DNA of 43,290 nt, taken from positions 1 to 43,290 of the forward strand of contig JANWLO010000045.1 of assembly GCA_025450815.1 (NCBI GenBank), in the 5' to 3' direction. Of the stretch, positions 12,216-36,819 are shown piece by piece. Numbering within the stretch: position 1 is the stretch's first letter; each line of letters opens with the position of its first letter. The notes under the pieces were generated by a model. It was given only the letters and a program-made list of their open reading frames with translations, searched no databases and was not told the origin of the DNA. The position numbers and the translations under genes are program-made. Origin of the DNA: Gemmatimonadaceae bacterium (GTDB lineage: Bacteria; Gemmatimonadota; Gemmatimonadetes; Gemmatimonadales; Gemmatimonadaceae).

Positions 12216-12223
12216 GCATCGCG

Positions 12224-14717: not shown

Positions 14718-14756
14718 CAGTGGGGGACCGAGAGTCGTGAGGAGAGGTTTTACATG

Positions 14757-14820
14757 CTTGTGCCGATGGCGATACCGAGCATCCCTTCGCATGGAGAAGA
14801 GGCGGTAACGGCTTACTGGG
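14757..14820 (+). repeat. Partial extra copy of the large repeat's second spacer
   Basis: CTTGTGCCGATGGCGATACC and the following GGCGGTAACGGCTTACTGG repeat the segment at 14581-14661 (CTTGCTCCGATGGCGCTACC and GGCGGTAATGGCTTACC) in the same orientation, with internal loss of about 17 nt. It abuts the CTCTGCG-type repeat. Confidence 0.65.
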
Positions 14821-14973: not shown

Positions 14974-15008
14974 GTAAGCAGGTCGCCCCAATCGAAACCA
15001 ATCTCTTA

Positions 15009-16358
15009 TTACCTGCCGAGCAGCTTCTCGATGATCGCCACCGAGCGCGCCGACGCGCCGGTGCCGCGGTCCACCATGGATTTCGCGCACGCGCCGGCCT
15101 CCGCCCGCGCCTCGTCATCCGTGAGCAACTCCGTGAGTCTGGCGCCTAGCGCCGCGCCGTCCGGCACCGACATACCCCCGCCGCACGCTTCGAGCAGCGA
15201 CGCGTCTCGACTGCCCTCGTGCCGCGGTCCGAAGAGCACCGGTACGCCGAACGCCGCGGGCTCGAGCACCGAGTGCAGTCCGGCATCGTGGAATCCGCCG
15301 CCCACGTACGCGACGTTCGCGAGCGCGTACAGATCGCCGAGCATGCCCACGACGTCCACGAGCAGCACGTCGGCGCGCGCCGGATCTCGTGCGCTTGTGC
15401 GCTCGAGCGCGAGTCCACGCTCCGACGCCCATTGCTCGATCGGTGCGAGATGCCTGGGGCTGGGTTCGTGAGGCGCGATGATTAGTCGCGCATCGGGCAC
15501 GCGCGTGCGAGTTGCGATCCACGCGGGGAGAAGCGCGCGCTCGTCGGCGGGCCACGTCGACCCCGCCACCAGAGTCGGACGATCGGAGCGCAGCGGCGCG
15601 AGCACCGTCTCGCGCTCCGCGATCGCGCGAGCGCGCGCCGACACCTGGTCGTAGCGCGTGTCGCCGGTGATCGTGATGACCTCGCGTTGCACGCCGATGC
15701 CGACTAGTCGCATGGCGTCCGCCTCGTCGATCGCGCCTACGGCATCGAGCATCGCGTAGGCGTCGCGCGTGAGCGAGGCGGCTACTGGCGAGCGACGGCT
15801 CGAGCGCGCCGACAGCGTCGCGCTCACGAGCGCGAGCCGAACTCCGCGCGCGTGCGCCGCGGCGACGAGCTCCGGCCACAGGTCGAGCTTGGAGAAGGCG
15901 AGCACGCGTGGACGGAGCGCGTCGAGCGCCGCGCGCGCATCGCCGCGCGAATCGAACGGCAGGTAGTCCGCGAAATCCACCGCGAGCGAGCGCGCGAACT
16001 GCTCGGCGCTCGGCGAGAAAAATGTGTACGCGAGCCGAATCTCGGGATGCGCATCTCGTAGTGCGGCGAGCACCGGGCGCGCCTGGAGACCCTCGCCAAC
16101 GGACGACGCGTGCATCCAGACGAGCGGACGAGACTCGTCGCCCGGGGCGCGCGACTCGCGCCCCCACCGCGCGTAACGCGCCCGGATGCCGCGCCGCGCG
16201 CGAAATGTCGCGCCCAGCTTCCCGCCACCGGACGGCGCCAGCGCGGCCGCTCCGCGCGCGAGCTGCATTGCAGCCTCGTACGCGCCACCGATGAGAGCGT
16301 TCACTTGCGGAGAACGTTGCGCGCGAAGCGTTGCATCGTTACTCTTTTCGCCGAACAT
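15009..16358 (-). CDS. waaA: 3-deoxy-D-manno-octulosonic acid (Kdo) transferase
   Basis: 449 residues from the ATG at 16358. A GTG at 16304 (VNALIGGAYEAAMQLARG) may be the true start, since family members begin close to such a helix. The N-terminal half has the catalytic motif WMHASSVGEGLQARPVL with its glutamate, and the LDLWPELV motif. The C-terminal half has the sugar-nucleotide motif VAYVGGGFHDAGLHSVLEPA followed by GVPVLFGP, as in GT30 WaaA/KdtA enzymes. It adds Kdo from CMP-Kdo to lipid A at the inner membrane, which implies the organism makes a Kdo-containing LPS core. It is separated by a 225-bp gap from the DsbA-like gene on the same strand. Confidence 0.9.
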   Translation of the reverse strand: MFGEKSNDATLRAQRSPQVNALIGGAYEAAMQLARGAAALAPSGGGKLGATFRARRGIRARYARWGRESRAPGDESRPLVWMHASSVGEGLQARPVLAALRDAHPEIRLAYTFFSPSAEQFARSLAVDFADYLPFDSRGDARAALDALRPRVLAFSKLDLWPELVAAAHARGVRLALVSATLSARSSRRSPVAASLTRDAYAMLDAVGAIDEADAMRLVGIGVQREVITITGDTRYDQVSARARAIAERETVLAPLRSDRPTLVAGSTWPADERALLPAWIATRTRVPDARLIIAPHEPSPRHLAPIEQWASERGLALERTSARDPARADVLLVDVVGMLGDLYALANVAYVGGGFHDAGLHSVLEPAAFGVPVLFGPRHEGSRDASLLEACGGGMSVPDGAALGARLTELLTDDEARAEAGACAKSMVDRGTGASARSVAIIEKLLGR

Positions 16359-21800: not shown

Positions 21801-22148
21801 GGCGTAGGCGTCGTCGCCTTCGCATCGGAGGCAGATTGGCAGAACTGGTTCACGGGTCCTGGCGGAAGCGCCGGAGAAGTGCAGACACAGTTCGTCGAGT
21901 CCGCGAGCTTCGTCAAGCTTCGCGAAATCAGTGTCGCGTACTCCGCGGATCAGAAGTGGGTACAGTCCGTCGGGTTTTCCTCGATCGATTTCCGCGTGGC
22001 GGGGCGCAATCTCCACACGTGGTCCAACTACAAGGGCCTCGATCCCGAGTCCAACCTCGGCGGTGCCGAGTTCCTGACACAGGGAATCGACTATTTCAAT
22101 GGTCCGCAAACTCGCTCAATCGTTGTTTCGATTGGGCTCAACAAATAA
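18837..22148 (+). CDS. SusC/RagA-type TonB-dependent outer-membrane receptor
   Basis: 1103 residues, full length. AAGGAGGAAG precedes the ATG. A signal peptide (SVIAVVLALFALPAFAAAQ) is followed by a CarboxypepD_reg-like domain (residues 27-115, ISGKVTSDAGAPLSSASVLV). The plug (about 120-260) holds the SusC hallmarks GDPGSSAYILIRGAKSL, QPLFVVDGTPIDN and KGSAAGAIYGARAANGVVLI. The rest is a 22-strand barrel ending in RSIVVSIGLNK. Such receptors take up oligosaccharides or peptides across the outer membrane with a SusD lipoprotein lid and TonB-ExbBD energy. The susD gene follows after 15 bp. No glycosidase or peptidase partner is in the window, so the substrate is unknown. A second SusC starts at 40934. 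Confidence 0.95.
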   Translation: MGRSVRSVIAVVLALFALPAFAAAQEGVTISGKVTSDAGAPLSSASVLVDGMGVGTISRDDGRYSFVVPAARAHGQQAQLTAKLIGYKAKSVTITLAGSIAQDFVLESNPLQLGVVIVTGAGTTNTVEKISTAINSVDSSAISRSNESQNIVSALSAQAPNVVVNTQGGDPGSSAYILIRGAKSLQGTNQPLFVVDGTPIDNTTESTMGGDASTVTQNRAADINPNDVESVQILKGSAAGAIYGARAANGVVLITTKSGHPGSTRYSLASKTSFDKVSKEYPLQRLYGQGSYGVDAHCRSGGVNNDDLPNCSPVAPNFAGTSYGSATRSWGAAIDPSTPVYNHATEIYDTGLTFDNTLTMSGGSDRTTFYLSAGSTNQNGVIVGPNNRYDRTTVRLKATHQLLSSLNLGGNLSYADGRGNYVQKGSNTDGLLLGALRTPPNFNNLPYLNPISGLQQSYRFRNPTPASVTSSRGYDNPFFTLNSDGNKSELGRFIGNLTGDWSPLDWLKVNETLGADYYNDWRLEALPQSSSGDPIGLVTREDINNLVLDHNLTATASHTFSPSFAGTLTLGQNLDSRRRRDTFIQGEQLKTASPLAIQNTVSYSPNEARSLEHTESYFAQATADLFDQLYLNGAVRNDGFSTFGVSDRRAWFPKVGASWVFTNALGNKDQKGFLSYGKLRAGYGETGKEPGVYQTITALSLTTQFGSGFGDLVNESQSGLPGVITAFAAGNSNLKPERTKEYEGGVDFGLLDQKVDAGITYYNDKSTDAILQIPTNGASTGFGAKLANGAVITNKGWEATLNARPVTGANFAWDFGLQWGKNTNHVVSLQGAEFITFNNEGFTGAIGAAVAGAGTGVVLGEDFVRCGRGLKFDPGTGSVVDFDAECGSAPKGALYLDASGYPVTDPTQRVIADATPDWSGSFHTNFRIYKRFQIGGLLDVRHGGSIWNGTRGALYSFGTHKDTEIRTVTDGTFCKNFQQDINPVCGGPGVGVVAFASEADWQNWFTGPGGSAGEVQTQFVESASFVKLREISVAYSADQKWVQSVGFSSIDFRVAGRNLHTWSNYKGLDPESNLGGAEFLTQGIDYFNGPQTRSIVVSIGLNK

Positions 22149-22163
22149 TCGAGGAGACCTAAG

Positions 22164-23552
22164 GTGAATACTGCCAAGAGGTTTGCACTCCTCGGCGTAC
22201 TGGCAATGGCCGGAACGATAGGAGCGTGCAACAATTTTCTGACCGGTGGCGAGCTAAGCACCGATCCTAACCGTCCAACCTCCGGAACGCCGCAGTCGCG
22301 TTTCGAAGCGACTCAGCCGTCGCTCTGGGCTCTACTCTCGAGCGATTTGGCTCGTGTGACGAGCGTGTGGATGCAGCAGCTGGAAGGGATCAACTTCCAG
22401 TACACGTCGGTGAACATTTACGTGCACGACGAATCCACAACCGGTGGACTACAAGCCGGATTGTATACTGGTGGCGGTCTCGTGGATCTTCGCGAGGTCG
22501 AGAGCGAGTCAGTCGCGTCAGGCGATTCATTGCTGCTTGGTCAAGCGCAGATCGTGGAAGCATTCATGATCGGCACTGGTGCGGACCTGTTCGGTGACCT
22601 GGTCTACTCACAGGCGCTCACGAACACTCCAAATCCGACGCTGGACAATCAGCTCGACGTCTACGATGCCGTGCAAACCTTGCTCACCACGGGTATCGGC
22701 AACCTCACCGCAACAGGACCCACGAATTTCGGTGCGGGTACGTCAGACCTGGTGTACGGCAACAGCAGGGCAAAGTGGACGGCGCTCGCACACACGCTAA
22801 AGGCGCGCTTCTTCCTGCACACGGCAGAAGTGCGGCCGGCCGCATATGCGCAAGCGTTGGCCGAGGCGCAGCTTGGAATCACCTCAACCACGGGTGATTA
22901 CAAGGCAATCTGGTCGGGATCGCTTGCCGAGCAGAACTTCTGGTTTCAGTTCTTCGTCAATCAGAGGGCCGGTTACATTGTGCCTGGACCGTTTTTCGTG
23001 AATCTGCTCAAGACGAACAGTGATCCACGGCTGACGGAGTACTTTGCGGTTGACGGCGCCAACAACGCGGTTGATTTGAGTGCAACACGACTCGACCCAA
23101 CGTTCTCACAGCCTCTCGTAACAGCCCAGGAGAACTCGCTCATCTGGGCGGAATCAGCGTATCGCACTGGCTCGACTGGTCCGGCATTGTCCGAGCTGAA
23201 TATCGCCCGTGCCCAGGCGGACACAGTGTGCAGCGCGGAAACCGGTTCATCCTGCGGCATTGGGCCTGAAGCAGCCGCCGGCAGCGCACTTCTCAAAGCC
23301 ATTCTCACGGAGAAGTACATCGCCGAGTTCCAGAACATCGAAGCATGGAACGATTACAAGCGCACCTGCTTCCCGAATCTCACGCCGACGGTCGCGGGCC
23401 TGATTATTCCCGCCCGGTTCTTCTACGACACGTCGGAGCGTCAGACGGACACGAACATCCCGGTCCCGGGCGCTCAGCCCACCCGGAATGCAAACGATCC
23501 GGCGAATGCGTTCGACGATTTCGGCGTAGCCTGCAAGGGACAGACTCCATGA
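22164..23552 (+). CDS. SusD/RagB-type outer-membrane lipoprotein
   Basis: 462 residues from a GTG start 15 bp after susC, with GAGGAG upstream. A lipoprotein signal ends IGAC (Cys22). The body is helical and TPR-like, as in SusD: PNRPTSGTPQSRFEATQPSL, a central FGDLVYSQAL, the domain-typical AKWTALAHTLKARFFLHTAEV, and a C-terminal LTEKYIAEFQNIEAWNDYKR before the proline-rich end. SusD proteins bind the ligand at the cell surface and close over SusC. It is 462 residues, within the family's usual range. A strong terminator follows 70 nt later, so susC-susD is a two-gene operon. Confidence 0.93.
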   Translation: MNTAKRFALLGVLAMAGTIGACNNFLTGGELSTDPNRPTSGTPQSRFEATQPSLWALLSSDLARVTSVWMQQLEGINFQYTSVNIYVHDESTTGGLQAGLYTGGGLVDLREVESESVASGDSLLLGQAQIVEAFMIGTGADLFGDLVYSQALTNTPNPTLDNQLDVYDAVQTLLTTGIGNLTATGPTNFGAGTSDLVYGNSRAKWTALAHTLKARFFLHTAEVRPAAYAQALAEAQLGITSTTGDYKAIWSGSLAEQNFWFQFFVNQRAGYIVPGPFFVNLLKTNSDPRLTEYFAVDGANNAVDLSATRLDPTFSQPLVTAQENSLIWAESAYRTGSTGPALSELNIARAQADTVCSAETGSSCGIGPEAAAGSALLKAILTEKYIAEFQNIEAWNDYKRTCFPNLTPTVAGLIIPARFFYDTSERQTDTNIPVPGAQPTRNANDPANAFDDFGVACKGQTP

Positions 23553-24888: not shown

Positions 24889-26130
24889 ATGCGCACGACG
24901 CGGTGGAAGATCGCACTCGTATCCAGCGCGCTGATCGGTGCGCACGCGAGCGCCCCCGCACTCGCGGCGCAGGACGCGACGCAGGATGCGCCGCCCCCCG
25001 CTGCCGCAGAGCAAATTCTCTATCCCGCCACACTCGACTACGGCACCGGGCTGATAGACATCCCCGTCGCCTGGGTCTCACCGACTTCCGGCGACGTCTG
25101 GATGCAGGCGTCCGGGAAAATCGTGTCGTACTGCGCAACGCCGTGCACCATCAACTTCGGCGACAAGCTCAACTCCAACTTCTCCATCGACACCCACTGG
25201 ATGCAACGCTTCTCCGTGGGTCTCTCCGTATACAGCCAGAACCCCGAGTGGGGATTCTTCGGTCAGGCGCTCGTGCTCAAGCAGCAGCCGAGCAAGGCGT
25301 GGCCGTCCATCGCGCTCGGCTTCCGCAATCTCGGCCCGTACAACCACGAAGAGCGTTTCCTCATCGGTCACGACATCTTCGTCTCGCCCTCCGGCGGAAT
25401 CAACGGCATCACACCGGGCTTCGCGCGCGACTTTCACACATCGCCCACCGTGTACGCCGTCGCTACGAAAGAGGCGACGTTCGGCAAGAGCTCCGCGAGC
25501 TTCAGCCTCGGTTACGGCAGCGGCATCTTCCACGATGACGGCGGACTGGGAAGCGCCTACAACGACAAGGGCACGATCGCAAAGGGCCTTTTCCTCGGCG
25601 CGCGCTACGCACTGCGCACGTCGGAGAACAGCAGCCTCACGATCCTCGCCGAGAACAACGGATTCGACTGGAACGCGGGCGTCGTCGGCAACTGGCGCGG
25701 ACTGTCGGCTGGCATCTACGGAACCGAGCTCGAGGAAGGCGGCAAGGATCCGAGCAAGGGCCCGCTCTACACGATTTACAACTACGCCAAGTTCAACGCT
25801 TCCATCGGCTACAGCGGCAACCTGCACGACATCGCGCACGGCACGATTCTCCGTGCGCGCATCGGTGAGCTCGAGCAGGAGCAGCTGCGGCTTCGCGCGC
25901 AGATCGCGCAGCGCGAGCACAAGATCGAGGATTTGCAGGTCGCTCTCTCGAAGGCGCAGGGCGGCGAGCTCGCCGAGGTTGCGAAGCGCCGCGAACAGCT
26001 CGACTCGCAAATTCAGGAAGAGCAGGAAGCGATCAAGCGCGCCGAAGAGCGGCTGAACGCGTTGCAGGGCGGAGCGCCACCACCACCAGCGCCCACGCCC
26101 CCGCCCAGCACCACCACGCCTCCGCGCTAA
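24889..26130 (+). CDS. Outer-membrane barrel with C-terminal coiled coil, paralogue 1
   Basis: 413 residues from the ATG at 24889, behind GGAGG. A signal peptide (KIALVSSALIGAHASAPALA) is followed by about 290 residues of barrel-like strands, including GLIDIPVAWVSPTSGDVWMQ, GLSVYSQNPEWGFFGQALVL and LGYGSGIFHDDGGLGSAYN. Residues about 320-390 form a long charged coiled coil (RIGELEQEQLRLRAQIAQRE), then a Pro/Thr tail (PPPPAPTPPPSTTTPPR). The next gene encodes a paralogue with the same three motifs and the same layout. A barrel followed by a coiled coil suggests a periplasmic arm that could touch the peptidoglycan or the TPR proteins encoded downstream. First gene of the ten-gene block; function unknown. 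Confidence 0.8.
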   Translation: MRTTRWKIALVSSALIGAHASAPALAAQDATQDAPPPAAAEQILYPATLDYGTGLIDIPVAWVSPTSGDVWMQASGKIVSYCATPCTINFGDKLNSNFSIDTHWMQRFSVGLSVYSQNPEWGFFGQALVLKQQPSKAWPSIALGFRNLGPYNHEERFLIGHDIFVSPSGGINGITPGFARDFHTSPTVYAVATKEATFGKSSASFSLGYGSGIFHDDGGLGSAYNDKGTIAKGLFLGARYALRTSENSSLTILAENNGFDWNAGVVGNWRGLSAGIYGTELEEGGKDPSKGPLYTIYNYAKFNASIGYSGNLHDIAHGTILRARIGELEQEQLRLRAQIAQREHKIEDLQVALSKAQGGELAEVAKRREQLDSQIQEEQEAIKRAEERLNALQGGAPPPPAPTPPPSTTTPPR

Positions 26131-26147
26131 CTCGACCCAGGTCAACG

Positions 26148-27362
26148 ATGATTTTCTCCGTCACCCGATCCGTGCGCATCGCGCTGCTGCTCGCCGTCTC
26201 GACGGCCGCCGGCATGATTCCCCGAGTCGCGAGCGCGCAAGAGACGTATCCGCAAACCATGTACTGGGGCGCCGGCCTGATCGACATTCCGGTGGCTTGG
26301 GTATCGCCGGTGACCGGCGACTTCTCGCTCAACTTCTCCGGCAAGACGTTCCACGGCGCGAAGGCATCGCCCGATCTCACGGTGCTCAATGGACTGAACA
26401 CCAACGGCGCGATCTCGTTCTCGTTTGCCGGGCGGCTCGAAGCCGGGCTCTCGATCTACTCTGATAATCCGGAGTGGGGAATCTTCGCGCAGGGGCTGCT
26501 CGTGAACGAGGAAAACTTTCGCCCGCGCTCTGGTGCGGTGCACTGGATTCCGAGCGTCGCGGTAGGGATGCGCAACATCGGTCCGTACGATCACATCGAT
26601 CGCTTCACCGCCGGCTACTCGCTCTTTCCAGGAACGGTGGCGAACCCGGGGAAGCAGCACATCGCGGATTCGCTGCACGCGAACTTCAAGACTGGTAACA
26701 CGGTGTACGGAGTAGCAACGAAGTCGTTCGCGCTCGAGGAGCTGAATCCCGGGTGGGGAAAGACGACGGTCAGCCTGTCGTTCGGCTACGGCAACGGTCT
26801 GTTCAAGAATGACGGCGGCCTCGGGAAGGCGTACGCCGCCAATTCGTGGGGCGGCGCGTTCGGAGGCGTGAAGGTGGATCTCTATCCGTCGGCGCACAGC
26901 ACGCTCTCGTTCATGGCCGAGAACAATGCGTGGGACTACGATGTTGGTGCCGCGTACGAGTGGCACGGACTGCGCGCCGGCGCGTACTGGACTGAGCTCG
27001 GCGCGTCGCGCGCCGACACGACGTCCTCCGCGTCGAAGCTGTACGGCTACAGCAAATTCGCGTTCACGCTCGGCTGGCAGAACAATGTCCTCGCGTTGCT
27101 GCGCGGACACGCACTGGACCGTCGCGTGGCGGAGCTCGAGCGCCAGCGCAAGCTGCTCACAGGCGAGATCACGGCGCGGCAGCAGCGCATATCGTCGCTG
27201 GAGCTCGAAATCAATCGGTACCCGGCGCAGAATCTGCTCGAGCTCGAGCAGCGACGCGCGCAGGCGGAACAGGAGCTACGCTCGGAGCGCGAGGCGCTCC
27301 AGCGACTGGAGGAGCGTCTGCACCGGCTGGAGCAGGACGCGCCGCCGAGCACCACTCCGTAA
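26148..27362 (+). CDS. Outer-membrane barrel with C-terminal coiled coil, paralogue 2
   Basis: 404 residues, 17 bp after paralogue 1. A signal peptide (SVRIALLLAVSTAAGMIPRV) precedes a barrel with the same landmarks: GLIDIPVAWVSPVTGDFSLN, GLSIYSDNPEWGIFAQGLLV and FGYGNGLFKNDGGLGKAYA. The C-terminal about 85 residues are a coiled coil (LDRRVAELERQRKLLTGEIT, then RRAQAEQELRSEREALQRLE) and the end is PPSTTP. A tandem duplication followed by divergence is likely. The pair may form a hetero-oligomer, as proposed for barrel pairs in myxobacterial Glt/Nfs complexes; that is inference. Confidence 0.8.
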   Translation: MIFSVTRSVRIALLLAVSTAAGMIPRVASAQETYPQTMYWGAGLIDIPVAWVSPVTGDFSLNFSGKTFHGAKASPDLTVLNGLNTNGAISFSFAGRLEAGLSIYSDNPEWGIFAQGLLVNEENFRPRSGAVHWIPSVAVGMRNIGPYDHIDRFTAGYSLFPGTVANPGKQHIADSLHANFKTGNTVYGVATKSFALEELNPGWGKTTVSLSFGYGNGLFKNDGGLGKAYAANSWGGAFGGVKVDLYPSAHSTLSFMAENNAWDYDVGAAYEWHGLRAGAYWTELGASRADTTSSASKLYGYSKFAFTLGWQNNVLALLRGHALDRRVAELERQRKLLTGEITARQQRISSLELEINRYPAQNLLELEQRRAQAEQELRSEREALQRLEERLHRLEQDAPPSTTP

Positions 27363-27385: not shown

Positions 27386-28114
27386 ATGCGAGCACAGAGT
27401 CTTCGCTCCTCCCTGCTGGTGATGACGGTCGGGTTGCTGCTCCCGGCAGTCGCGATCGCACAACAGACCGATTCGATGCAGGCCGACAGCGCGGCGCAGC
27501 AGCAGGCGTACGAGAACCGGCGCGGCGCGCTCGTAAAGGAGCTGCAGAGCACGCAGGACAAGCTAAGCGATCTGCGCAGCCAGCGCGTGCGACTCGAGGC
27601 GCGCATCGAGAACGTGCTCGCCGAAACAATGCAGCGGCGCACGCAGCAGCTGCTCGTTAGCAAGGAGCAGACGGCGCTCCTGCAGCTGGACGGCGTGCTC
27701 GCCTCGGCGCAGGACAACATGGTGGCGCAGCGCGATCGCATGCGCTCGCTCGGCGACGCGGTGAGGCGACGTGCGGGCGCGGTGCTCGTCGTCACGCTGC
27801 GCGCCGACTCGGCGGCTCCGGGGTCGCTAGGTGATGCATCGCTTCAAATCGACAACATGGTCGCGGCCACGCGCACTTACTCGCAGGTCGCGGCGCAGGC
27901 GCTTCAGACCGGCGCGGTGGATCCGCTCTACCGCTCCGAGGTGCTGCCGAGCACGCACACGGTGGAGCTGCATCTAACGCTCGCCGGCCAGCAGGTGGTG
28001 CAGGGAATCAACGTGAACGCGGTTGCCGAAACGGTGACGTACGTCGAGTTCACGGTTCGCAATGGGCAGCTCGTCCCCACCACGTGGACGAGCCGCGGGA
28101 CAACGCCGTTCTGA
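27386..28114 (+). CDS. Periplasmic coiled-coil protein (uncharacterised)
   Basis: 242 residues, 23 bp after the second barrel gene. Signal peptide SLLVMTVGLLLPAVAIAQ. Residues 35-130 are a strongly charged helix with heptad character (RGALVKELQSTQDKLSDLRS, QRVRLEARIENVLAETMQRR). The C-terminal 100 residues look like a beta-rich domain (TVELHLTLAGQQVVQGINVN, VTYVEFTVRNGQLVPTTW). No family recognised. Position and spacing make it part of the ten-gene block, probably a periplasmic partner of the barrel coiled coils. Confidence 0.75.
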   Translation: MRAQSLRSSLLVMTVGLLLPAVAIAQQTDSMQADSAAQQQAYENRRGALVKELQSTQDKLSDLRSQRVRLEARIENVLAETMQRRTQQLLVSKEQTALLQLDGVLASAQDNMVAQRDRMRSLGDAVRRRAGAVLVVTLRADSAAPGSLGDASLQIDNMVAATRTYSQVAAQALQTGAVDPLYRSEVLPSTHTVELHLTLAGQQVVQGINVNAVAETVTYVEFTVRNGQLVPTTWTSRGTTPF

Positions 28115-28128
28115 TTCTTTCGAGATCG

Positions 28129-30321
28129 GTGCGCGCACTCGCGGTCCTTGCCGCGATGATTCTGGTGTCGCCAGTGCTGGCACAGCAGCCCGTCGCCGCG
28201 CCGCCCGCACCGGCGTCGCCCGCGTCGCAGGCGGTCGTGCAGCCATCGCCAGACCAGGCGCGCGGGATGGACGCCGAGCTTCGCATGGCGCTCTTCGACG
28301 TCACGATGGATCATCCACTGAGCGCGCTCGATCGCCTCGAGTGGTTGCGCTCATCCCCGCTCGCCGGCTCGGGCGCCGCGGTGCCGGGAATGCGCGCGCA
28401 GGAAGACCTGCTCTTTCTCCTCGCCGAGTCGTACTACCGCCTTGGCATGCGCGACGCGTTTCGCAAGACCGCGACTTCGCTCGACTCGGCGGCGCCCGAC
28501 GGACGCTACGCCGGTGTGATCGCAGCGCAGCGGAGGCTCGACGCGTACTCGCGCGGCGACTACTCGCGCGTGCGCACGCTCGCGTCCGCGAAGAGTACCG
28601 GCGACCGCGCGCTGATCTCGCTCGTCGCCGGCCTGGCGGCGGTGCAGGTCAGGGACTACAACGCCGCGCACAACGCGTTTCTGCAGGCATCCCTCGCCGG
28701 GGGGCAGTTCGCGCTCTATGCGCAGTACATGGACGCCTTGGCCACCGCCGCCGGCGACAGTACGAAGGGAGTCGTCGCGCTGAACGCGCTGCAGGCGCTG
28801 AGCGAGGCGTCCCGCGGCGCCTTCTCCGAGCAGGTGCGCTTGAGCGCCGCCCAGACCGCGCTCGGCATCGGCCAGTACGCGGCCGCCGCATCGCTCGCCG
28901 ACGGCGTTCCCGCAACGAGCGGCGCCGGCGCGCAGGCGCTCCTCACCAAGGCTTGGGCGCTGTACCGCGGCGGCAATGCGTCCGGCGCAGCAACGGCCTT
29001 CCGCGATTTCGCACGGCTCTATCCGCAGCTGCCGGAGCGCGATCAAGCGCGACTGATGGCGGGACAGATCATGCTGGAAGGCGGGAAAAGCGATTCAGCC
29101 GAGCAGTACTTTCAGGGCGTTGCGGACTCGATTGGCGGCGAGCTCGCAGCGCTCCAGACTCGCGCCACCACGGCGATGACGGACGCTAGCCGCGCACTGG
29201 TTGGTGCTCGCATCGCCGGCACGGTGTTCATCGCGAACGCGGGCGCGGGCAAGGTCATCTCGCTTGCCGACGATGCGGGCGCGGAGAAAGCGCGCATCGC
29301 CGCCGCCTTCGCCGGCACTCCGGATTCTTCGCAGATGACTTCAGCGCCGCAAATCCTGAACGAGAACGGCATCGTGCAGCGCGTCGATTCCGTTACCGGC
29401 GGCGGATTCCCCGTGCGCGTGGTGTTCTCGCCTCGCGTCGACTCGCCCACGCCGGGTGCGTACGCCGACCGCACGCAAGCCGTGCTCGCGACGGATATCC
29501 GGCTCGCGCTCGCGTCGTACCGGCTGCAGGAGGAGATCGATGCGCAGAAGACGAAGATCGCGGCGCTTGAAAATCTGCAGCTGCTCATCGTGCAGGGCGA
29601 CAGCGGATTGGCCGAGAACGCGCGCCAGATCGGGTCGACTCAGGACTCGCTCGAGAAGATGAAGGGCGTGCTCGAAGGGACGCGCGACAAGGTGCGCACG
29701 GCGCTTCGAGCGCAGATCACCGCCACTCGCCAGATCGCCGCCGAGAACATCCGGCTGCTCGACAGCACGAAGGCGTCGCTCGGCGCAAACGCCAAGGGCC
29801 CCGAGCTCGATGCGCTGACGTTGGAGCAGCAGACGGCATCGATCTACAGCGGGATCGCGGACATGATCGAGCGCGGGCTGGAGCAGGCGCTCGATCGCAA
29901 CCCCGCATTCGTGCTGCGCGATTCGCTCGTCGTGCGGCTCGCGCGGGCGCACGCGCTCCACGACACCACGGCGGCGGTGCTGAGCACTGACTCGTCGGTG
30001 GTGGCGACGGAGCTGGCGGTACAGCGCGGCAAGGAGTCGAACGCGGTGATCGCGATGCGCACGGAGGTCGCGACGGCGGGCACGCAGCGGGCGGCGGCTG
30101 AGGGCGCGCTGGTGACGCTGGTGGACGAAGAGCTTCGCGCGCGCGCGACGGGGCTCATTGCGCAGCTGAGCCACGATCGCGAGGCGGCGGACTACGCGAG
30201 TGCGAGCGCTGCGTTCTTCAAGGCGATGGATGCGACAGCGACTGCACCCGGCGGTGCCAGCACCGCGGGAGCGGGCGCGGGCACTCCGTCCGGCGGCACC
30301 TCAACGCCTCCCGAACGATGA
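28129..30321 (+). CDS. Large periplasmic helical-repeat/coiled-coil protein
   Basis: 730 residues from a GTG at 28129. A GTG at 28084 would add 15 residues but overlap the previous gene by 31 nt and place acidic residues before the signal peptide (RALAVLAAMILVSPVLAQ). Residues about 55-330 are helical pairs like TPR units (LFLLAESYYRLGMRDAFRKT, ALISLVAGLAAVQVRDYNAA, AWALYRGGNASGAATAFRDF). The C-terminal half is long charged helices (YRLQEEIDAQKTKIAALENL) and ends in a Gly/Ser/Pro tail. It is probably a periplasmic scaffold. The stop overlaps the next start by 4 nt. Confidence 0.75.
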   Translation: MRALAVLAAMILVSPVLAQQPVAAPPAPASPASQAVVQPSPDQARGMDAELRMALFDVTMDHPLSALDRLEWLRSSPLAGSGAAVPGMRAQEDLLFLLAESYYRLGMRDAFRKTATSLDSAAPDGRYAGVIAAQRRLDAYSRGDYSRVRTLASAKSTGDRALISLVAGLAAVQVRDYNAAHNAFLQASLAGGQFALYAQYMDALATAAGDSTKGVVALNALQALSEASRGAFSEQVRLSAAQTALGIGQYAAAASLADGVPATSGAGAQALLTKAWALYRGGNASGAATAFRDFARLYPQLPERDQARLMAGQIMLEGGKSDSAEQYFQGVADSIGGELAALQTRATTAMTDASRALVGARIAGTVFIANAGAGKVISLADDAGAEKARIAAAFAGTPDSSQMTSAPQILNENGIVQRVDSVTGGGFPVRVVFSPRVDSPTPGAYADRTQAVLATDIRLALASYRLQEEIDAQKTKIAALENLQLLIVQGDSGLAENARQIGSTQDSLEKMKGVLEGTRDKVRTALRAQITATRQIAAENIRLLDSTKASLGANAKGPELDALTLEQQTASIYSGIADMIERGLEQALDRNPAFVLRDSLVVRLARAHALHDTTAAVLSTDSSVVATELAVQRGKESNAVIAMRTEVATAGTQRAAAEGALVTLVDEELRARATGLIAQLSHDREAADYASASAAFFKAMDATATAPGGASTAGAGAGTPSGGTSTPPER

Positions 30322-33320
30322 TGATGCGTTCGGGCCATCGTGCCCTCTTCGCGCTCATCTCGCTGTCGCTCGGCGTTGCCGCCGCGCCTGCGCAGGCGCC
30401 CCCTGCCCAGGCGCCGACGCAGCTCCTGGCATCGGCACGGCCTGCGAACGCCGACGCGCGCGACGACGCGATCGAGAAGCTCACCACCTTCCTCACGCGC
30501 TATCCGCAAAGCACGCTGCGGCCGGGCGCGCTCTTCCAGCTTGGCGAGCTGCTCGTGCGCCGCGCGGACGAGAACTTCGCCTCCGCGCAGCGCGCTGGCG
30601 GCGAGGTGCCCGACCGCCCGGACTACGCGCCCGCGATCACGCGCTACGAGGAGCTCATCCAGAAATTCCCGGCGTATCCGCGCGTCGACGCTGCGGCCTA
30701 CACGCTTGGCACGCTCTACTTCGCGGATCAGCGCAACGCCGATGCGGCGAAGATGTTCGACCTCGTGACTTCCAAGGAACAGTCGCACTTCCGCCCTGAG
30801 GGATACTTCCGGCTGGGCGATGCCGACTTCGAGCTCGCGGCGAAACTGCGCGGTGAACCGCGCAAGGCTATGTTCGAGCGCGCGGCCACGGCTTACGAGA
30901 GCGCAACGAAGATCGCACCGCCCAACGGCGACATCTATTTCCTCTCGCTCTACAAGCTCGGCTGGTCGTACTACAATCAGGCGACGCAGGCCAATCAGCC
31001 GGAATACCAGCAGGCGGTCGAGGTGTTCGGGCGTCTGGTGGCCGAGTACGACAAGCTCTCGGCGGAACAGCAGGCGCGGCTCGGGCTGCGCGGCGAAGCG
31101 ATCGAGTACATGGCGGTCGCGCTCACGCAAACCGGCGGCGCCGATGCGGCGCGTCGGTACTTCGGCACACATGCCGCGTCGGAGTTCAAGCTCCCGGTGC
31201 TGCGCCGCGTGGCCTCCGGACTCCGTGACCAGGGCGACTTCGTGCGCGCCGTGGATGCGTATCGCGCGGTGCTCGCGGACGCGCCCGCGGACTCGGGCGC
31301 GCTGGCGGCGCAGCGCGAGATCGTGGACATCTATCAGAATCGAGTGCTCGAGCCGGACAAGGCGCAGCAGGCGCGACTCGAGTTGGTGGACCGCTTCGCA
31401 CCGAACTCGGTGTGGTGGAATGCGAACGAGCCGCTGCGCGACAGCGCGCTCAAGACGCGCGAGTCCGCTCTGCGGCAGAGCGGCCAATACAGTCTGTCGC
31501 GCGCGCAGGACAAAAAGGACCGGGTGAAGTTCGCCGAGGCGGCCGATCTCTACGGTCGATACATGGGCGAGTTCTCGAAGAGTGACAGTGCGCAGGCGGT
31601 GGATCTGTTGTACGGCGAGGCGTTGTTCGCGGAGGGTGACTACTTCAAGGCTGGCACCGAGTACTCGCGCGCCGCGTACGCGTACACCAACGATCCAAAG
31701 CTCTCCGCGCAGGCGGGGCAGGACGCAATCGTCGCGTTCGACTCCGCCACGGTGCGCGGCAAGGGCGATCGCGCGGCGCAGGACTCCATGTTCGCCGTGG
31801 TCGACAAGTACGTGGCCGCGTTCCCCGCAACCGATGTCGCGCACCACGCGCTCATCGAGAAGGGGAAGCGCGCGTCGGAGGCTCAGCGGTGGGACGTGAT
31901 GGCGGCGACGTTCAAGACGTACGCCGACAACTATCCCGCCGACGCCTACACGCCCACGGCCCAGAAGCTGATTGGCGACGCGCTCTACAAGCAGGGGCTC
32001 TACACCGAGGCGCAGGGACAGTGGGAGAATGCCCAAGCGGTGGCGACGAAGGCAGGGAAGCGCGCGCTGGCGGATTCGATCACGCTCGTCCGCAACGCCG
32101 CGGCCGTGACGTACGGTGATTCGCTCGTGAAGGCGGGGAACTATCGCGAGGCAGCGGAAGCCGTGTACGTCGCGTTCGCGGACAGGAATCCGACGTCGGA
32201 CCGCGCGCCGGACGCCCTCCGCAACGCCATCGAGACGTACGTACTCGCTGACAGCGTCGCGCGGGCGAAGGGCGATGGCAGTGCGTCGAGCGCCGCGAAG
32301 CAGCGCGCGCTCGAGCTGTCGCAGCGTCTCGTCACGCAGTACCCCACGTACAAGTATCGCGTGCAATACCAGGCGCTTCAGACGCAGCTGCTCGCGGATC
32401 TCGGAAAGCGCGACGAGGCGGCGGGTGCTCTCGAGACGCTGATCAAGGAAAATCCGACGTGGCCCGGCCGCGCGGACGCGATGGTTCGTCTCGCGGTGGA
32501 CTACGATTCGCTCGCGAAGCCGAAGGATGAAGCAGCAGCGTACGAGCGGTTCGCGATCGCGTATCCGAAGGATGCTCGCGCCGTGGACGCGCAATACAAC
32601 GCCGCCGTCGCATATCTTCAGGGTGCGGACACGGCAAGCGCGATCCGCGCGTACGGCACCTTTGCAACGCGCTATCCGCGCGACCAGCGAGTGGGTGGTG
32701 CGCAGGCGACACGGGTGGCGCTCATCAAGGCGGGCGGTAACGTTGCGGCTGCCAACGTCGAGCTCGCGCGACTCTGCGTGCGTCCCTCGGCCGAGCTGCG
32801 CACGGAGTGCGCGGCGCGCATGGGTGAGAGCGAGTTCGCGCAAGGGCGCGCGCTCTTCCCGCGCTACCAGGCGCTCAAGCTCTCAATTCCGCTTCGCGTG
32901 AATCTGACGCGCGCGGGCGTCGAGCGGCTCTCCGCGCCCAAGCGCAAGCTGCTCGCGGAAATGTCGGGGCACTTCACGAAGGCCATCGCGAGCGGCGATC
33001 CTTCGTGGCTGTCGGCCTCGTCGTATTACGTCGGTCTGGCGCAGTGGGAGTATGGGAATTACCTGGCGAATCTCAGCCTGCCCAAAGATCTCACCGACGA
33101 CCAGCGCGCCGCGGCGCAGGCGGGGTCGGCGCGCCAGGCAGAGCAGTACTACCAGGCGGCGAACAAATTGTGGCAGACGCTCGTGGACAAGGCGGCCGCG
33201 GACAAGTTCGACAATGCGTGGGTTCAGCGCGCGAAGGATGCCTTGGGCGGCAAGGTTGATGCTTCGCCGCCGGCGGCGTCTGCGGACAATGAGGCAGCTC
33301 CTTCGCGAGGCGCACAATGA
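30318..33320 (+). CDS. Large periplasmic TPR protein
   Basis: 1000 residues with an N-terminal signal (ALFALISLSLGVAAAPAQA). Many tetratricopeptide-like units run through the chain, e.g. LRPGALFQLGELLVRRADEN, AAAYTLGTLYFADQRNADAA, AVDLLYGEALFAEGDYFKAG, AVDAQYNAAVAYLQGADTAS; each pairs two helices with conserved small and aromatic residues. The architecture recalls the periplasmic TPR proteins of trans-envelope machines (AgmU/GltD of Myxococcus, YbgF/CpoB of Tol systems), which act as protein-binding scaffolds. It overlaps its neighbours by 4 nt on both sides (ATGA), so it is translationally coupled. A long open frame on the opposite strand is a shadow. Confidence 0.85.
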   Translation: MMMRSGHRALFALISLSLGVAAAPAQAPPAQAPTQLLASARPANADARDDAIEKLTTFLTRYPQSTLRPGALFQLGELLVRRADENFASAQRAGGEVPDRPDYAPAITRYEELIQKFPAYPRVDAAAYTLGTLYFADQRNADAAKMFDLVTSKEQSHFRPEGYFRLGDADFELAAKLRGEPRKAMFERAATAYESATKIAPPNGDIYFLSLYKLGWSYYNQATQANQPEYQQAVEVFGRLVAEYDKLSAEQQARLGLRGEAIEYMAVALTQTGGADAARRYFGTHAASEFKLPVLRRVASGLRDQGDFVRAVDAYRAVLADAPADSGALAAQREIVDIYQNRVLEPDKAQQARLELVDRFAPNSVWWNANEPLRDSALKTRESALRQSGQYSLSRAQDKKDRVKFAEAADLYGRYMGEFSKSDSAQAVDLLYGEALFAEGDYFKAGTEYSRAAYAYTNDPKLSAQAGQDAIVAFDSATVRGKGDRAAQDSMFAVVDKYVAAFPATDVAHHALIEKGKRASEAQRWDVMAATFKTYADNYPADAYTPTAQKLIGDALYKQGLYTEAQGQWENAQAVATKAGKRALADSITLVRNAAAVTYGDSLVKAGNYREAAEAVYVAFADRNPTSDRAPDALRNAIETYVLADSVARAKGDGSASSAAKQRALELSQRLVTQYPTYKYRVQYQALQTQLLADLGKRDEAAGALETLIKENPTWPGRADAMVRLAVDYDSLAKPKDEAAAYERFAIAYPKDARAVDAQYNAAVAYLQGADTASAIRAYGTFATRYPRDQRVGGAQATRVALIKAGGNVAAANVELARLCVRPSAELRTECAARMGESEFAQGRALFPRYQALKLSIPLRVNLTRAGVERLSAPKRKLLAEMSGHFTKAIASGDPSWLSASSYYVGLAQWEYGNYLANLSLPKDLTDDQRAAAQAGSARQAEQYYQAANKLWQTLVDKAAADKFDNAWVQRAKDALGGKVDASPPAASADNEAAPSRGAQ

Positions 33321-34075
33321 GGCGTTTCGTGAGGCTGGGATGCGGCGTCCTTGTGGGTGGCGCAGCGCTGCTTTCGCCGGCGAGGCTGCACGCGCAGCAA
33401 AAGGGACCTCCGCCCAAGCGCGGGCAGGCCATCGAGATTCGCGGGCAGGTGCCCACACCGCAGGTGGTGACGGTGCGTCCACGCGAAGTGCCGGCGTACG
33501 ATCGGCAGATTCTCTCGCCCGCATTCTACAATGGAACAGGGACGATGGCATCTGCGGGCGGAGTGCAACTCGTGCCGGAGAGTCAGGTGAGGGGCACGAC
33601 TGCGCTCGACACTCTGCCGGTGGGCATCGCGCGCGAGGGCGGAGCACCCGCATCCGCCGCGACCGGACTCGCTCCGCTGCAGGTGAAAGCGGATTCGACG
33701 CGCAATGCGCAGGCGGCGGCGGTTGCACGTGCCGGCGCGAGCGCGGCGGAGATCGAAGCGATGCGACGCGAGCTGGCGGTGAGACGCGCGCGACTCGATT
33801 CGCTGCGGCGCGCGCTGAACGAGAGCATGCAGACGCCGGTGGATCTCGGGAAGATGCCGGCGCCGGCGGTGAGACGAATGAGCGCTGCCGATTCAGCGGC
33901 GCGCGCGCAGGAGATCGAGTCGATCAGGCGCGAGCTCGAGTACCGGCGCCAGCGGCTGGATTCGCTGCAGCGCGTAGTGAGAGCGATGGGAAGGGCACGA
34001 AAACCGGCACCACCGAAGCGCACCACACCGGATACGACCGCCGCACGGCCGACGACACCGCGCGGCCGCGAGTGA
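33317..34075 (+). CDS. Periplasmic protein with duplicated coiled-coil segment
   Basis: 252 residues, overlapping the TPR gene by 4 nt. An N-terminal signal (RLGCGVLVGGAALLSPARLH) is followed by a proline-rich region (KRGQAIEIRGQVPTPQVVTV). Two similar helices follow: AAEIEAMRRELAVRRARLDS and, after a linker, AQEIESIRRELEYRRQRLDS, an obvious internal duplication of about 28 residues. The end is Lys/Pro/Thr-rich. It may be anchored or periplasmic and dimerise by the coils. It lies just before the ExbB-type gene (38 bp). No family recognised. Confidence 0.75.
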   Translation: MRRFVRLGCGVLVGGAALLSPARLHAQQKGPPPKRGQAIEIRGQVPTPQVVTVRPREVPAYDRQILSPAFYNGTGTMASAGGVQLVPESQVRGTTALDTLPVGIAREGGAPASAATGLAPLQVKADSTRNAQAAAVARAGASAAEIEAMRRELAVRRARLDSLRRALNESMQTPVDLGKMPAPAVRRMSAADSAARAQEIESIRRELEYRRQRLDSLQRVVRAMGRARKPAPPKRTTPDTTAARPTTPRGRE

Positions 34076-34113: not shown

Positions 34114-34755
34114 ATGAGCAATATGATCGAGTATTTCCGCAGTGGCGGCCCAATCATGTGGCCCATTCTCCTCGTGGCGCTGATCGGTCTCGCCGTTTTC
34201 GTCGAGCGGTTCTACATGATCGTGATCCGCTCGAAGATCAACGGGCGCACGTTCATCGAACGCGTGATCCAGCTCGTGCGCGCAGGGCGCATCGAGGATG
34301 CGATAAAACTGTGCGGACAGTCGAACGCGGTGCTCCCGGACATGGGGCTCCTCATTCTGCGCAGCCGGAGTCGTGATGAGGCGGATCTGCAGAATGTCGC
34401 CGACGCGGCTGCACTCAGCGTGCTCCCGCGACTCACTCGACGACTTCACTACCTGCCGATGCTCGCGAACGTCGCGACCCTCATCGGACTGCTCGGTACG
34501 ATCTACGGCTTGCGCGCTGCGTTCTCCGCGGTTGGCGTGGCGGCGGCGGCCGAGCGGTCGGCGGCGCTGGCGTCCGGCATCGCGATCGCGCTGAACGCCA
34601 CTGGATTCGGATTGTTCACCGCGATCCCGCTGACGGTGGCGCACTCGTATCTCGTGAGCCAGGCGGAAGGCATCATCGAGCAGGTCGATGAGTTCCAGGT
34701 GCGCCTGATCAACGCGCTCATCGATCGTCCCGACGTCCGACTCGGCCACCGGTAA
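34114..34755 (+). CDS. MotA/TolQ/ExbB-family proton channel protein
   Basis: 213 residues. Three membrane spans are visible: residues about 11-33 (GPIMWPILLVALIGLAVFVE), about 111-136 (LHYLPMLANVATLIGLLGTI) and about 152-178 (SGIAIALNATGFGLFTAIPL). A cytoplasmic loop lies between the first and second spans, as in ExbB/TolQ/AglR. These proteins form a pentamer around the ExbD/TolR helices and use the proton gradient to move a periplasmic partner. The next two genes encode the ExbD-type partners, the first with no gap. One TolQ plus two TolR homologues is the AglRQS arrangement of Myxococcus. Confidence 0.93.
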   Translation: MSNMIEYFRSGGPIMWPILLVALIGLAVFVERFYMIVIRSKINGRTFIERVIQLVRAGRIEDAIKLCGQSNAVLPDMGLLILRSRSRDEADLQNVADAAALSVLPRLTRRLHYLPMLANVATLIGLLGTIYGLRAAFSAVGVAAAAERSAALASGIAIALNATGFGLFTAIPLTVAHSYLVSQAEGIIEQVDEFQVRLINALIDRPDVRLGHR

Positions 34756-35286
34756 ATGGCATCAGTCTTTCATCGGGCCAAACAGCGCCGCGCCGAACGG
34801 GCGCCGGTGCTGGCGAGCGGGAACATCAACCTCGTTCCGCTCGTGGACATTCTCACGTCCATCGTGTTCTTCAGCCTCCTGACGTATCAGGGGGCGACGA
34901 TGGCCGCGCTGACGTCCTTCGACCTGACGCTGCCGCCCGTGGTGGTGAACACGCCCGAGCAGCTTTCGAAGATCAAGTCCGAGAAGGACGTGCTCAATCT
35001 GTTGCTCGCAGTACGCGTGGATAACGACAAGCTCACGGTGGAGCACTCCGAGGAGGGAGGATTTCACCAGGTGATCGAGGGGTTGAATGCGCAGTCGCTG
35101 GACCAGCTGCAGGCACTCATGACGGGAATTCGCTCCAAGTATCCGCAGAATGCCGACGTCACCGTGATCCCGGCGGACGAAGTGAGCTACGCGAACATCG
35201 TTCATGTGCTCGAACGGCTGAAGCTCTCGCACTTCACCGGGATCTCGCTCACGACGAAGGCGCGCGGCGCCGCGACGGGAGCATAG
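34756..35286 (+). CDS. ExbD/TolR-family protein, first copy
   Basis: 176 residues starting directly after the ExbB-type stop. One membrane span (residues about 24-48) contains the conserved proton-carrying aspartate, Asp31, in NINLVPLVDILTSIVFF, as in ExbD, TolR and AglQ/AglS. The periplasmic part (residues 50-176) is a TolR-like alpha/beta domain (LLLAVRVDNDKLTVEHSEEG, NADVTVIPADEVSYANIVHV). The next gene, 1 nt further on, encodes a second ExbD-like protein. Confidence 0.93.
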   Translation: MASVFHRAKQRRAERAPVLASGNINLVPLVDILTSIVFFSLLTYQGATMAALTSFDLTLPPVVVNTPEQLSKIKSEKDVLNLLLAVRVDNDKLTVEHSEEGGFHQVIEGLNAQSLDQLQALMTGIRSKYPQNADVTVIPADEVSYANIVHVLERLKLSHFTGISLTTKARGAATGA

Positions 35287-35287: not shown

Positions 35288-35851
35288 ATGAGTCGCGCCC
35301 GTGATGCGCGCAGTGCGCGCCGCGCAGCACAGTTCGCGAAGTTCAGGCTCACCGAGCTGAATCTGATTCCGCTCGTTGATACGTTCGTGTCGATCGTGTT
35401 CTTCGCGCTCACCACCGCCACCGTCGGCGAGCTCTCGCCAGTGGTACCAGGCGTCCGGCTTCCGACCACCAGCGTGGGCGCGGTTGCACTTTCGCAGCTC
35501 ACGCTCGGCATCGGAGCGCAGGTGACGCTGAGCGGCCATCCGCTCATGAGCACGGTGGATGCGGCGCGCGCGCGTGCCACCGATCCGCGGCAGCCGCTCG
35601 TCATTCCGCAGCTCTTCAGGGCGCTCAAGACTGCCGCCGATTCGATGCGGAGTGTGAAGCGCATTTCCGCGGACTCGTCGCTGGATACGCCGCTAGCGAT
35701 TCAGGGCGACAGCAGCATGCACTACGACCTGCTCGCACGCGTCATGCAAACGGCGCGGATGGCGGGATTCAAGAATCTCTCTCTGCAGGTGAATAGAACC
35801 GGATCTTCAACGACGGTCACGACGGCTCCCTCGGGCACAGGAGCGCCGTAA
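35288..35851 (+). CDS. ExbD/TolR-family protein, second copy
   Basis: 187 residues. A single N-terminal span carries Asp31 (ELNLIPLVDTFVSIVFF), at the same residue number as in the first copy. The periplasmic part differs (LTLGIGAQVTLSGHPLMSTV, PLAIQGDSSMHYDLLARVMQ), so the two are distinct partners and not a recent duplication. The stop overlaps the next start by 1 nt. Two different ExbD-type proteins with one ExbB-type protein is unusual for a plain TonB system and resembles AglR-AglQ-AglS. Confidence 0.93.
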   Translation: MSRARDARSARRAAQFAKFRLTELNLIPLVDTFVSIVFFALTTATVGELSPVVPGVRLPTTSVGAVALSQLTLGIGAQVTLSGHPLMSTVDAARARATDPRQPLVIPQLFRALKTAADSMRSVKRISADSSLDTPLAIQGDSSMHYDLLARVMQTARMAGFKNLSLQVNRTGSSTTVTTAPSGTGAP

Positions 35852-36819
35852 TGGCCGACGAGAACAGGCCGCGCCGTGCGCGGGCGATGGCGGACGATGC
35901 GTCCTTTACGCGACAGCTCCGCTACGAGTTCGCCGACGCCGAAGGGCGGGCGATTCTGTATTCGTATCTGCTCGCGGCGGCGCTCGGCATCATCTGGATT
36001 TTGCTCGTGATCTTTCTTCCTTCTCCCCCGAACTCGATCAATCTGCTCAAGGAAGAGGAGCCGGTGCAGATCGAGGTGAAGACGGAGGACGTGCCGATCC
36101 CGACGCCAGCGCCGGTGGCTGCCGTTGGCGGAAGCCCGAAGGTTGCCGCGCCAACGCCCAAGCCGGCAGGTGGAAAGGGTGGCAACTCCCCCAAGAACGA
36201 CACGCGCGCGATCAACGATGCGTTCGGCGGCGGGCCGGCGAACAACACGGGCGGCATGGTCGGCGACGTGTCGAACGCGTTGCGCGGCACCGAGGTCGCA
36301 ACGGGAAGCGGCGCTACGCCTGGTGCGCAGGGGAAGGCAGTGATCGGCTACGGCAACGGCGGACAGAGCTCGCGGACGCCAGGGCGTGGCGGACTGGGCT
36401 CGGGGCTCGGCACTGGCGGCACCGGCGGTTTGGGCGGCGTGGGCGGCGGTGGCGGTGTCGGCTTCGCGACGGTGAAGGTCGCCCCGCCAAGTGTGATCCA
36501 CGCGGAAAACGTCGGCGGCCCGGGGCGCAACGTGTCTGACCTGGGCGACTACGTGCGCGGGCGCAACTCGCAGCTCCAGTTCTGCTATTCGGAGTACGGG
36601 CTCAAGACGAATCCGTCGCTCGCGGGATCGGTGTCGGTGGCGGTTACGCTCACGAGTGCGGGCGCCGTGACCGGCGTCGACATCACGAAGCGTACCTGGT
36701 CGGGCCCGGGCGCCTCCGAATCGGAGTCGTGCATCAAGCAGCGCATCGCCGGGTGGAAGTTCCCGAGCTCCGACCAGGGAGGGGGGACGTACAGCTTCTC
36801 GTTCTCCTTCAGCAGGTGA
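35851..36819 (+). CDS. TonB-like single-span protein with AgmX/PglI-type C-terminal domain
   Basis: 322 residues. A cytoplasmic N-terminus of about 34 residues is followed by one span (AILYSYLLAAALGIIWILLV, residues 34-57). A Pro-rich stretch (VPIPTPAPVAA) and a long Gly/Asn-rich linker (GRGGLGSGLGTGGTGGLGGV) would cross the periplasm. The C-terminal domain (about 230-322) has Cys245 in QFCYSEYG and Cys294 in ESCIKQRI, with SLAGSVSVAVTLTSAGAVTG between, then WKFP: the AgmX/PglI (GltJ/GltG) C-terminal pattern rather than ordinary TonB_C. It is probably driven by the ExbB/ExbD proteins encoded upstream. Last gene of the ten-gene block. The same domain recurs on a lipoprotein at 38796-39287. Confidence 0.88.
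   Translation: MADENRPRRARAMADDASFTRQLRYEFADAEGRAILYSYLLAAALGIIWILLVIFLPSPPNSINLLKEEEPVQIEVKTEDVPIPTPAPVAAVGGSPKVAAPTPKPAGGKGGNSPKNDTRAINDAFGGGPANNTGGMVGDVSNALRGTEVATGSGATPGAQGKAVIGYGNGGQSSRTPGRGGLGSGLGTGGTGGLGGVGGGGGVGFATVKVAPPSVIHAENVGGPGRNVSDLGDYVRGRNSQLQFCYSEYGLKTNPSLAGSVSVAVTLTSAGAVTGVDITKRTWSGPGASESESCIKQRIAGWKFPSSDQGGGTYSFSFSFSR

Follow-up and report, generated by a model that had tools for sequence, protein, structure and literature searches.

Introduction

The closest described relatives of the locus studied here are the Agl-Glt and Nfs machines of Myxococcus, which serve gliding and assembly of the spore coat. To our knowledge, it is still open how the motor of these machines pushes across the periplasm and takes hold of the outer membrane. 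In this study, we analysed a stretch of 43,290 nucleotides from a Gemmatimonadaceae bacterium (contig JANWLO010000045.1, assembly GCA_025450815.1), referred to as the window, with focus on two tandem genes, A and B, for probable outer-membrane barrels with coiled-coil tails. They head an operon, A-B-C-D-E-F-Q-R1-R2-G, several products of which are related by sequence to the Myxococcus machine.

According to PMC4488436, the two paralogous outer-membrane barrels GltB and GltA of Myxococcus stabilise each other and are both required for stability of the periplasmic GltC, and the purified proteins interact. The genes nfsA-H are paralogues of gltA-H, and an AglQ D28N mutant fails to sporulate (PMC3858216, excerpt). 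Luciano 2011 (PMC3169522) reported a core of aglRQS and gltC, D, E and G in Delta- and Gammaproteobacteria and Fibrobacter, to which gltA, gltB and gltF were recruited later; the phylum studied here is not among the holders of the core that the available portion of that paper names. Among the matches listed in our literature search, which covered neither subscription papers nor preprints, none linked a Gemmatimonad with gliding or Agl/Glt, and the available parts of two recent reviews (PMC13104615, PMC12288465) do not mention barrels of this kind. A further version of the machine whose motor, transducer and barrels are encoded by a single operon, with a different outer-membrane end and apparently in another phylum, would help to separate what the core needs from what the job at the surface needs.

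Results

The tandem pair and its coiled-coil tails

By sequence, A and B are sister outer-membrane proteins with matching helical tails, at the head of a ten-gene operon. Both genes are real and lie where an earlier sequence-only reading had placed them, and the three motifs and the Pro/Thr tails described there are present in both proteins. Their features are:

24889..26130, + strand: gene A, 413 residues; a signal peptide and a probable barrel, followed by the two-helix coil and the Pro/Thr tail
25066..25821, + strand: probable barrel region of A, residues about 60-311 (low-confidence AlphaFold2 (AF2) strands, porin matches, alignment with OmpA-tailed relatives)
25822..26067, + strand: two-helix coiled-coil segment of A, residues 312-393, break at 356-360 (heptad score, AF2, alignment)
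26148..27362, + strand: gene B, paralogue of A, 404 residues (genome search, identity to A)
26247..27083, + strand: probable barrel region of B, residues about 34-312 (homology to A and to OmpA-tailed relatives; AF2 left the region unresolved)
27087..27335, + strand: two-helix coiled-coil segment of B, residues 314-396, break at 358-359 (heptad score, AF2, structural matches, alignment)

The start codon of A is the ATG at 24889, with GGAGG beginning 8 bases 5' of it. A and B are 39% identical (E 1e-75 in a search of their own genome) and both carry a signal peptide. A further candidate relative from the same genome (L003) was rejected as a chance match to what we take to be a subtilase-like protein.

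The long coiled coils of the sequence-only reading are confirmed, with the correction that each is modelled as two helices with a short break. For the 80-residue stretches starting at residue 322 of A and 325 of B, heptad hydrophobicity was 0.64 and 0.68, compared to shuffle means of 0.14 and 0.15, and the score was attained by 1 of 500 shuffles for A and by none of 500 for B. AF2 placed helices at 314-357 and 360-396 in B and at 312-355 and 361-393 in A, with ten-residue means of the predicted local distance difference test (pLDDT) of 70-86 over residues 331-390 and values near or below 50 at the helix ends. Shape matches of the B tail include known hairpins (CHMP4B hairpin, Z 10.3, 1.2 Å over 76 residues; Rad50 hook, Z 10.6), which, like the further helical matches to LSD1 and ESCRT hairpins, concern shape only. 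For helices, Z values of this size are common, and between helical bundles a Z below about 13 may carry little weight. From these models we predict that the coil forms a two-helix hairpin and not a single long rod.

Alignment covered 23 of the 30 A/B proteins from the 15 genomes which carry the pair (see below), with 12 of the 15 represented. The tail runs without gaps across 83 columns in 22 of the 23 proteins, and the barrel region is gapped in all 23 rows. This fixed tail length points to a structural job. Conservation of the coil is about that of the barrel, and identity to A of the window is alike in tail and barrel. For B, tail and barrel identities are 71% versus 58% in a near relative (L046) and 27% versus 41% in a far one (L053), so that by sequence the B coil is relatively better kept than the barrel in near relatives and less well in far ones.

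The downstream genes

Neighbouring genes of the operon either overlap or are separated by no more than 38 bases. After A and B they read:

27386..28114, + strand: gene C, exported protein with a coiled coil (by profile, weakly similar to the same-place protein of Myxococcota Glt-like clusters)
28084..30321, + strand: gene D, tetratricopeptide repeat (TPR) and coiled coil, probably GltC-type (profile comparison; start at 28084 or 28129 uncertain)
30318..33320, + strand: gene E, GltD/NfsD-type TPR protein (profile comparison, genome searches)
33317..34075, + strand: gene F, coiled-coil protein whose start is signal-like, standing where GltE/GltF would be
34114..34755, + strand: gene Q, AglR-type TolQ/MotA_ExbB proton-channel subunit (Pfam, genome searches, tree)
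34756..35286, + strand: gene R1, TolR/ExbD-type subunit (PF02472 above cut-off; Asp within the hydrophobic stretch)
35288..35851, + strand: gene R2, second TolR/ExbD-type subunit (PF02472 above cut-off; Asp within the hydrophobic stretch)
35851..36819, + strand: gene G, with a single strongly hydrophobic segment, a C-terminal tail of GltG/AgmX type and without an FHA domain (NCBIfam, hhalign)

For the comparison, myxobacterial genomes were reached via MglA, and we read the Nfs operon (L187), glt clusters (L307, L308) and further Glt-like clusters (L298-L301). E gave 100% in hhalign against GltD/NfsD (E 2e-38, 874 columns), compared to 5% against GltC and 41% against GltE, both of which are likewise TPR proteins. 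Searching six Myxococcota genomes with E returned six hits below 1e-14, all of them GltD/NfsD-type genes in G304, G305 and G308. D gave 77% against GltC and 92%, as its best match, against GltC-type proteins of the further clusters, with the alignment confined to the TPR region, and C gave 29% (E 6e-4) against the protein preceding GltC in those clusters. No relative of F was found among GltC, GltD, GltE and GltG by profile comparison. The tail of G passes the AgmX/PglI model NF033768 (56.7 bits, cut-off 40) and gave 99% against the GltG C-terminus; against the full GltG model G reached 34.5 of 650 bits, and the GltG and GltJ models both stayed far below cut-off.

Q matches PF01618 with 80.3 bits (cut-off 22.9). 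In a tree of 37 Q-like proteins it shares a clade with the AglR-type rows (support 99/96), apart from the remaining superfamily rows, which are not named one by one; L305 (tree row L266) was taken as AglRQS from lengths of 245 and 162 residues, as printed for AglR and AglQ in the accessible part of PMC3169522. In each of the six Myxococcota genomes, the two best hits of Q scored 24 to 68 bits above the third. We infer that the Asp in the hydrophobic stretch of R1 and R2 is the residue of the proton path.

On these comparisons, three products are kin to the Agl-Glt/Nfs machine of Myxococcus, namely E (GltD-type), Q (AglR-type) and G (with a GltG-type tail), and D is probably GltC-type. The sequence-only reading had rightly tied A and B to the proteins encoded next, but had missed this kinship of the downstream block, which emerges from the matches of E, Q and G. 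The gene order A-B-(C)-D-E-...-G parallels barrel-barrel-GltC-GltD-GltE-F-GltG in the Nfs operon and in L307.

Several observations stand beside these results. In part of family f1 (L048, L049, L051-L054), D and E are fused into a single open frame of about 1530-1770 residues, suggesting joint action of the two. A cluster of Enhygromyxa salina (L298:4226-17731) contains C-like, GltC-, GltD- and GltE-type genes, Q, two ExbD genes (PF02472) and a GltG-type gene, nearly the order of the window without A and B; its Q is the closest to that of the window outside its own family (41%). In the myxobacterial record L299, a roadblock/MglB-like gene (named by eye) and MglA (4846-5924) directly precede a Glt-like cluster with C-like, GltC-, GltD- and GltG-type genes (6046-15599); the label of this record, Comamonas sp. 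KCTC 72670, looks wrong, since the MglA encoded there shares 98% identity with the M. xanthus query. Within the window, 2 kb downstream of G, a short lipoprotein-like protein (38796-39287) carries a second AgmX-type tail (32% identity to that of G, E 5e-14).

Distribution in the phylum

Searches of 298 genomes of the phylum were approximate, with at most six (B) or two (E) candidate places scored per genome. B was found in 67 genomes, comprising 15 of family f1 with two adjacent copies including the coil, and 51 of family f5 and one of f9 with all or part of the barrel region only. E was found in 16 genomes, all f1, namely the 15 pair-bearing genomes and G242. Barrel-plus-coil pairs are therefore present in 15 of 298 genomes, each of which also has E, and C follows B in 14 of them, the contig of the fifteenth ending just after B. 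The link between the outer-membrane pair and the periplasmic proteins encoded next, as put forward by the sequence-only reading, is supported by these counts. Homologues standing alone in many genomes, which it had named as evidence against the link, were found for the barrel (51 f5 genomes, with the block not adjacent in any of the 8 read) and not for the barrel together with the coil. In the search with E, no genome of f5 was hit. Within genera the block is patchy; in g9, G092 and G236 have it and G027, G057 and G063 are without it. Plasmid searches with B and with E gave no match.

Two f5 genomes without an E hit (G017, G058) each contain two AglR-like genes (L263, L264, L269, L270), sister to the AglR clade, which perhaps belong to other Agl-type motors without this transducer.

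The barrel and its relatives

A barrel in both proteins, as claimed before, is likely from its relatives and from the porin-like model of A, while its strands were left unresolved. With the two-sequence alignment used for AF2, pLDDT in the barrel region was only 21-37 for B and 21-55 for A. The low-confidence A model resembles porins (KdgM, Z 10.1, 3.4 Å over 148 residues; also CymA, OmpG, FapF and a designed 12-strand barrel), whereas structural comparison gave no porin resemblance for the B model. A home-made count of amphipathic strands lends weak support, with 10 peaks against 5.2 expected for f1 and f5 sequences together and 7 against 5.3 for f1 only, one peak in each set falling within the signal peptide; for myxobacterial barrels, 9 peaks were counted in both sets, with 4.2 and 5.1 expected.

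Neither a fitting Pfam or NCBIfam family nor a solved relative was found for the barrel by sequence. A weak Porin_4 row (E 0.014) appeared in one B relative (L052). Kinship with a solved structure was rejected, the rows below E 0.01 being a keratin coil and Pal/OmpA domains, and B alone giving two galectin rows (E 0.4-0.5). A YjbH-type barrel, as suggested by the GLIDIP motif, was absent among the best 25 of 47 families matched at E up to 5. By these sequence searches, the A/B barrel belongs to an unnamed family.

In the sister family f5 of the same class, 7 of 11 relatives end in an OmpA domain (PF00691), 4 in other tails and none in a coil. These 11 proteins come from 8 of the 51 genomes; L056 (G132) was dropped, as the GC-based gene caller returned hardly any calls there, and this caller misses or shortens some genes (e.g. 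F in L045, C in L049). Neither A nor B contains the PF00691 domain. The OmpA-tailed relatives are also found in pairs, adjacent in L060 (1903-5120) and L057 (8652-12111) and about 1.7 kb apart in L061 (7384-12405). Since the OmpA domain binds peptidoglycan, the C-terminus of the OmpA-tailed f5 relatives faces the periplasm, and in this family it is nothing out of the ordinary for a barrel to be followed by a periplasmic module. The idea that a module after the last strand is unusual is not supported, as OmpA itself has a periplasmic domain there and 7 of 11 relatives carry one. What is special to A and B, as judged from sequence, is the coiled coil in place of the OmpA domain.

Discussion

Like the probable barrels A and B, GltB/GltA and NfsA/NfsB (TIGR04565) are paralogous barrels of the outer membrane whose tandem genes immediately precede GltC-type genes (L187, L307). 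By analogy of position, A and B may work like GltB and GltA; by the tests made, they are not members of their family. All 6 tested Myxococcota barrels pass TIGR04565, and hits above its cut-off were obtained in 2 of 2 Myxococcota genomes against none of 20 f1 genomes, 16 of which gave weaker hits; the weak hits of the window's own genome do not lie on the window contig. Profile comparisons lent no support to A and B as distant GltA/GltB, and this candidate was rejected.

Taking position and kinship of the block together, we lean slightly towards a model in which A and B form the outer-membrane end of a machine that spans the envelope, is driven by protons and is kin to Agl-Glt/Nfs of Myxococcus, with their hairpins docking on the periplasmic C and D. 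Q, R1 and R2, kin to AglRQS by sequence, would act as the proton channel and motor in the inner membrane, and the single-pass G, with its GltG/AgmX tail, would carry the motion into the periplasm. This compartment would be bridged by the GltD-type E together with D, probably GltC-type, C and F. A and B, as probable barrels, would anchor the chain in the outer membrane, and the fixed-length two-helix hairpin of each would enter the periplasm and dock on the coiled coils of C and/or D, in the way GltB and GltA bind GltC. For the work performed, with the cell itself, a surface adhesin or a polysaccharide as candidate cargoes, we favour surface transport or a gliding-like function over nutrient uptake. 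The model offers a small contact for study, the 83-residue tail against C or D.

Several findings weigh against this model. No barrel model is confident. Neither A nor B gave a TIGR04565 row at E up to 1, and B gave none even at E up to 5, and hhalign of A and B against 64 collected Myxococcota Glt/Nfs-type barrels gave 0.4-0.5%, so that the argument from the shared slot is not one of homology. In the operon, no GltE was recognised (C, D and F gave at most 8% against it, and E fits GltD far better), G is without an FHA domain and without any Pfam match at E up to 1, and the match of C to the Glt-like cluster protein is weak. Strong E matches occur in only three of the six Myxococcota genomes, with weak ones in G309 and G310 and none in G311 at E 0.001; the GltD-type gene of G311 (in L298) was found with an E profile at 6e-12. 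The Q tree carries long-branch warnings. G242 contains C to G with A and B not in place and no A/B hit elsewhere, the gene at their position being presumably DsbA-like, which implies that A and B are either not indispensable or replaced there. MglA, considered as a sign of polarity control, is uninformative, since all 32 tested genomes have it with or without the block, and it says nothing for motility. Finally, the B relative of L045 shows a weak match to a trimerisation motif within the coil (PF08954, 22.9 bits, cut-off 27), which would speak against a simple hairpin.

The last point touches on an alternative that we consider unlikely, in which A and B do belong to a Glt-like machine and the coil serves A-B or A-A/B-B assembly instead of docking on C or D. 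Besides the trimerisation motif, it would agree with the pairing of A and B, with the equal, fixed length of their tails and with the mutual stabilisation of GltB and GltA in Myxococcus (PMC4488436, accessible part). However, the B tail modelled alone packs like a closed hairpin, as judged from the shape matches only, and would have less need for a partner, and the same operon encodes C and D, which bear coiled coils.

The operon could also be read as a variant of Tol-Pal, with TolQ, two TolR, a TolA-like G and YbgF-like TPR proteins, where A and B would be OmpA-like anchors holding the outer membrane to the envelope. E indeed passes the YbgF cut-off (124.3 bits, cut-off 90.1), Q and R match the TolQ and TolR models and the barrel relatives carry OmpA/Pal domains. 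Yet these TolQ and TolR matches (70.9 of 221 bits; 24.0 and 25.1 of 127.3 bits) do not reach the equivalog cut-offs, Q groups with the AglR-type rows, E aligns nearly end to end with GltD, A and B are without the OmpA domain and none of the ten operon products matches TolB or Pal, which renders this reading quite improbable.

Directly upstream of the operon, the window contains a pair at 18837-23552 which we take to be SusC/SusD-like, and the two best plasmid matches of the SusC-like protein are Gemmatirosa replicons (28-30% identity). That the operon is an ExbBD/TonB-type energiser for this pair, with A and B as accessory porins for an imported polymer, is hardly credible, since the tail of G is of the AgmX/GltG type, E is GltD-type and only 1 of 11 f1 loci read has a SusC/SusD relative (several contigs or stretches end nearby), even with Q and R in the ExbB/ExbD superfamily, a SusD relative beside the block in that locus (L045) and, in G242 (L310), a SusC relative at a distance of about 3.5 kb past G.

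Comparison with known systems

Returning to A and B as the outer-membrane end of an Agl-Glt/Nfs-type machine, their shape has parallels elsewhere. OmpA-like two-domain proteins (barrel and PF00691) have an N-terminal barrel followed by a C-terminal periplasmic module, as A and B probably do, the module of A and B differing as a two-helix coil. The amyloid porin FapF (PDB 5o65, 5o67, 5o68) matches the low-confidence A barrel with Z 8.7-9.5, with no sequence relation seen; its periplasmic helical domain is N-terminal, unlike the C-terminal coil of A and B. The Myxococcota barrels end at or shortly after the apparent last strand, as judged by eye, where A and B instead add the two-helix coil and the Pro/Thr tail. 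It is possible, if on balance somewhat doubtful, that this lineage exchanged the outer-membrane coupler of an Agl-Glt/Nfs-type machine. Members of a barrel family which elsewhere in the class is anchored to peptidoglycan by an OmpA domain would here carry the fixed-length coil hairpin instead and, as the A/B pair, have taken the slot of GltB/GltA. If so, the motor-transducer core would be a module which can be fitted to unrelated outer-membrane parts.

With the Agl-Glt/Nfs core, the operon of the window shares the AglR-type Q, two ExbD-type R subunits, the GltD-type E, the GltG-type tail and the probable GltC-type D. It differs in that no GltE is recognised, G has no FHA domain, motor and transducer stand in one operon and C and F are additional. 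In the place of GltB and GltA, it has an outer-membrane pair of a different kind.

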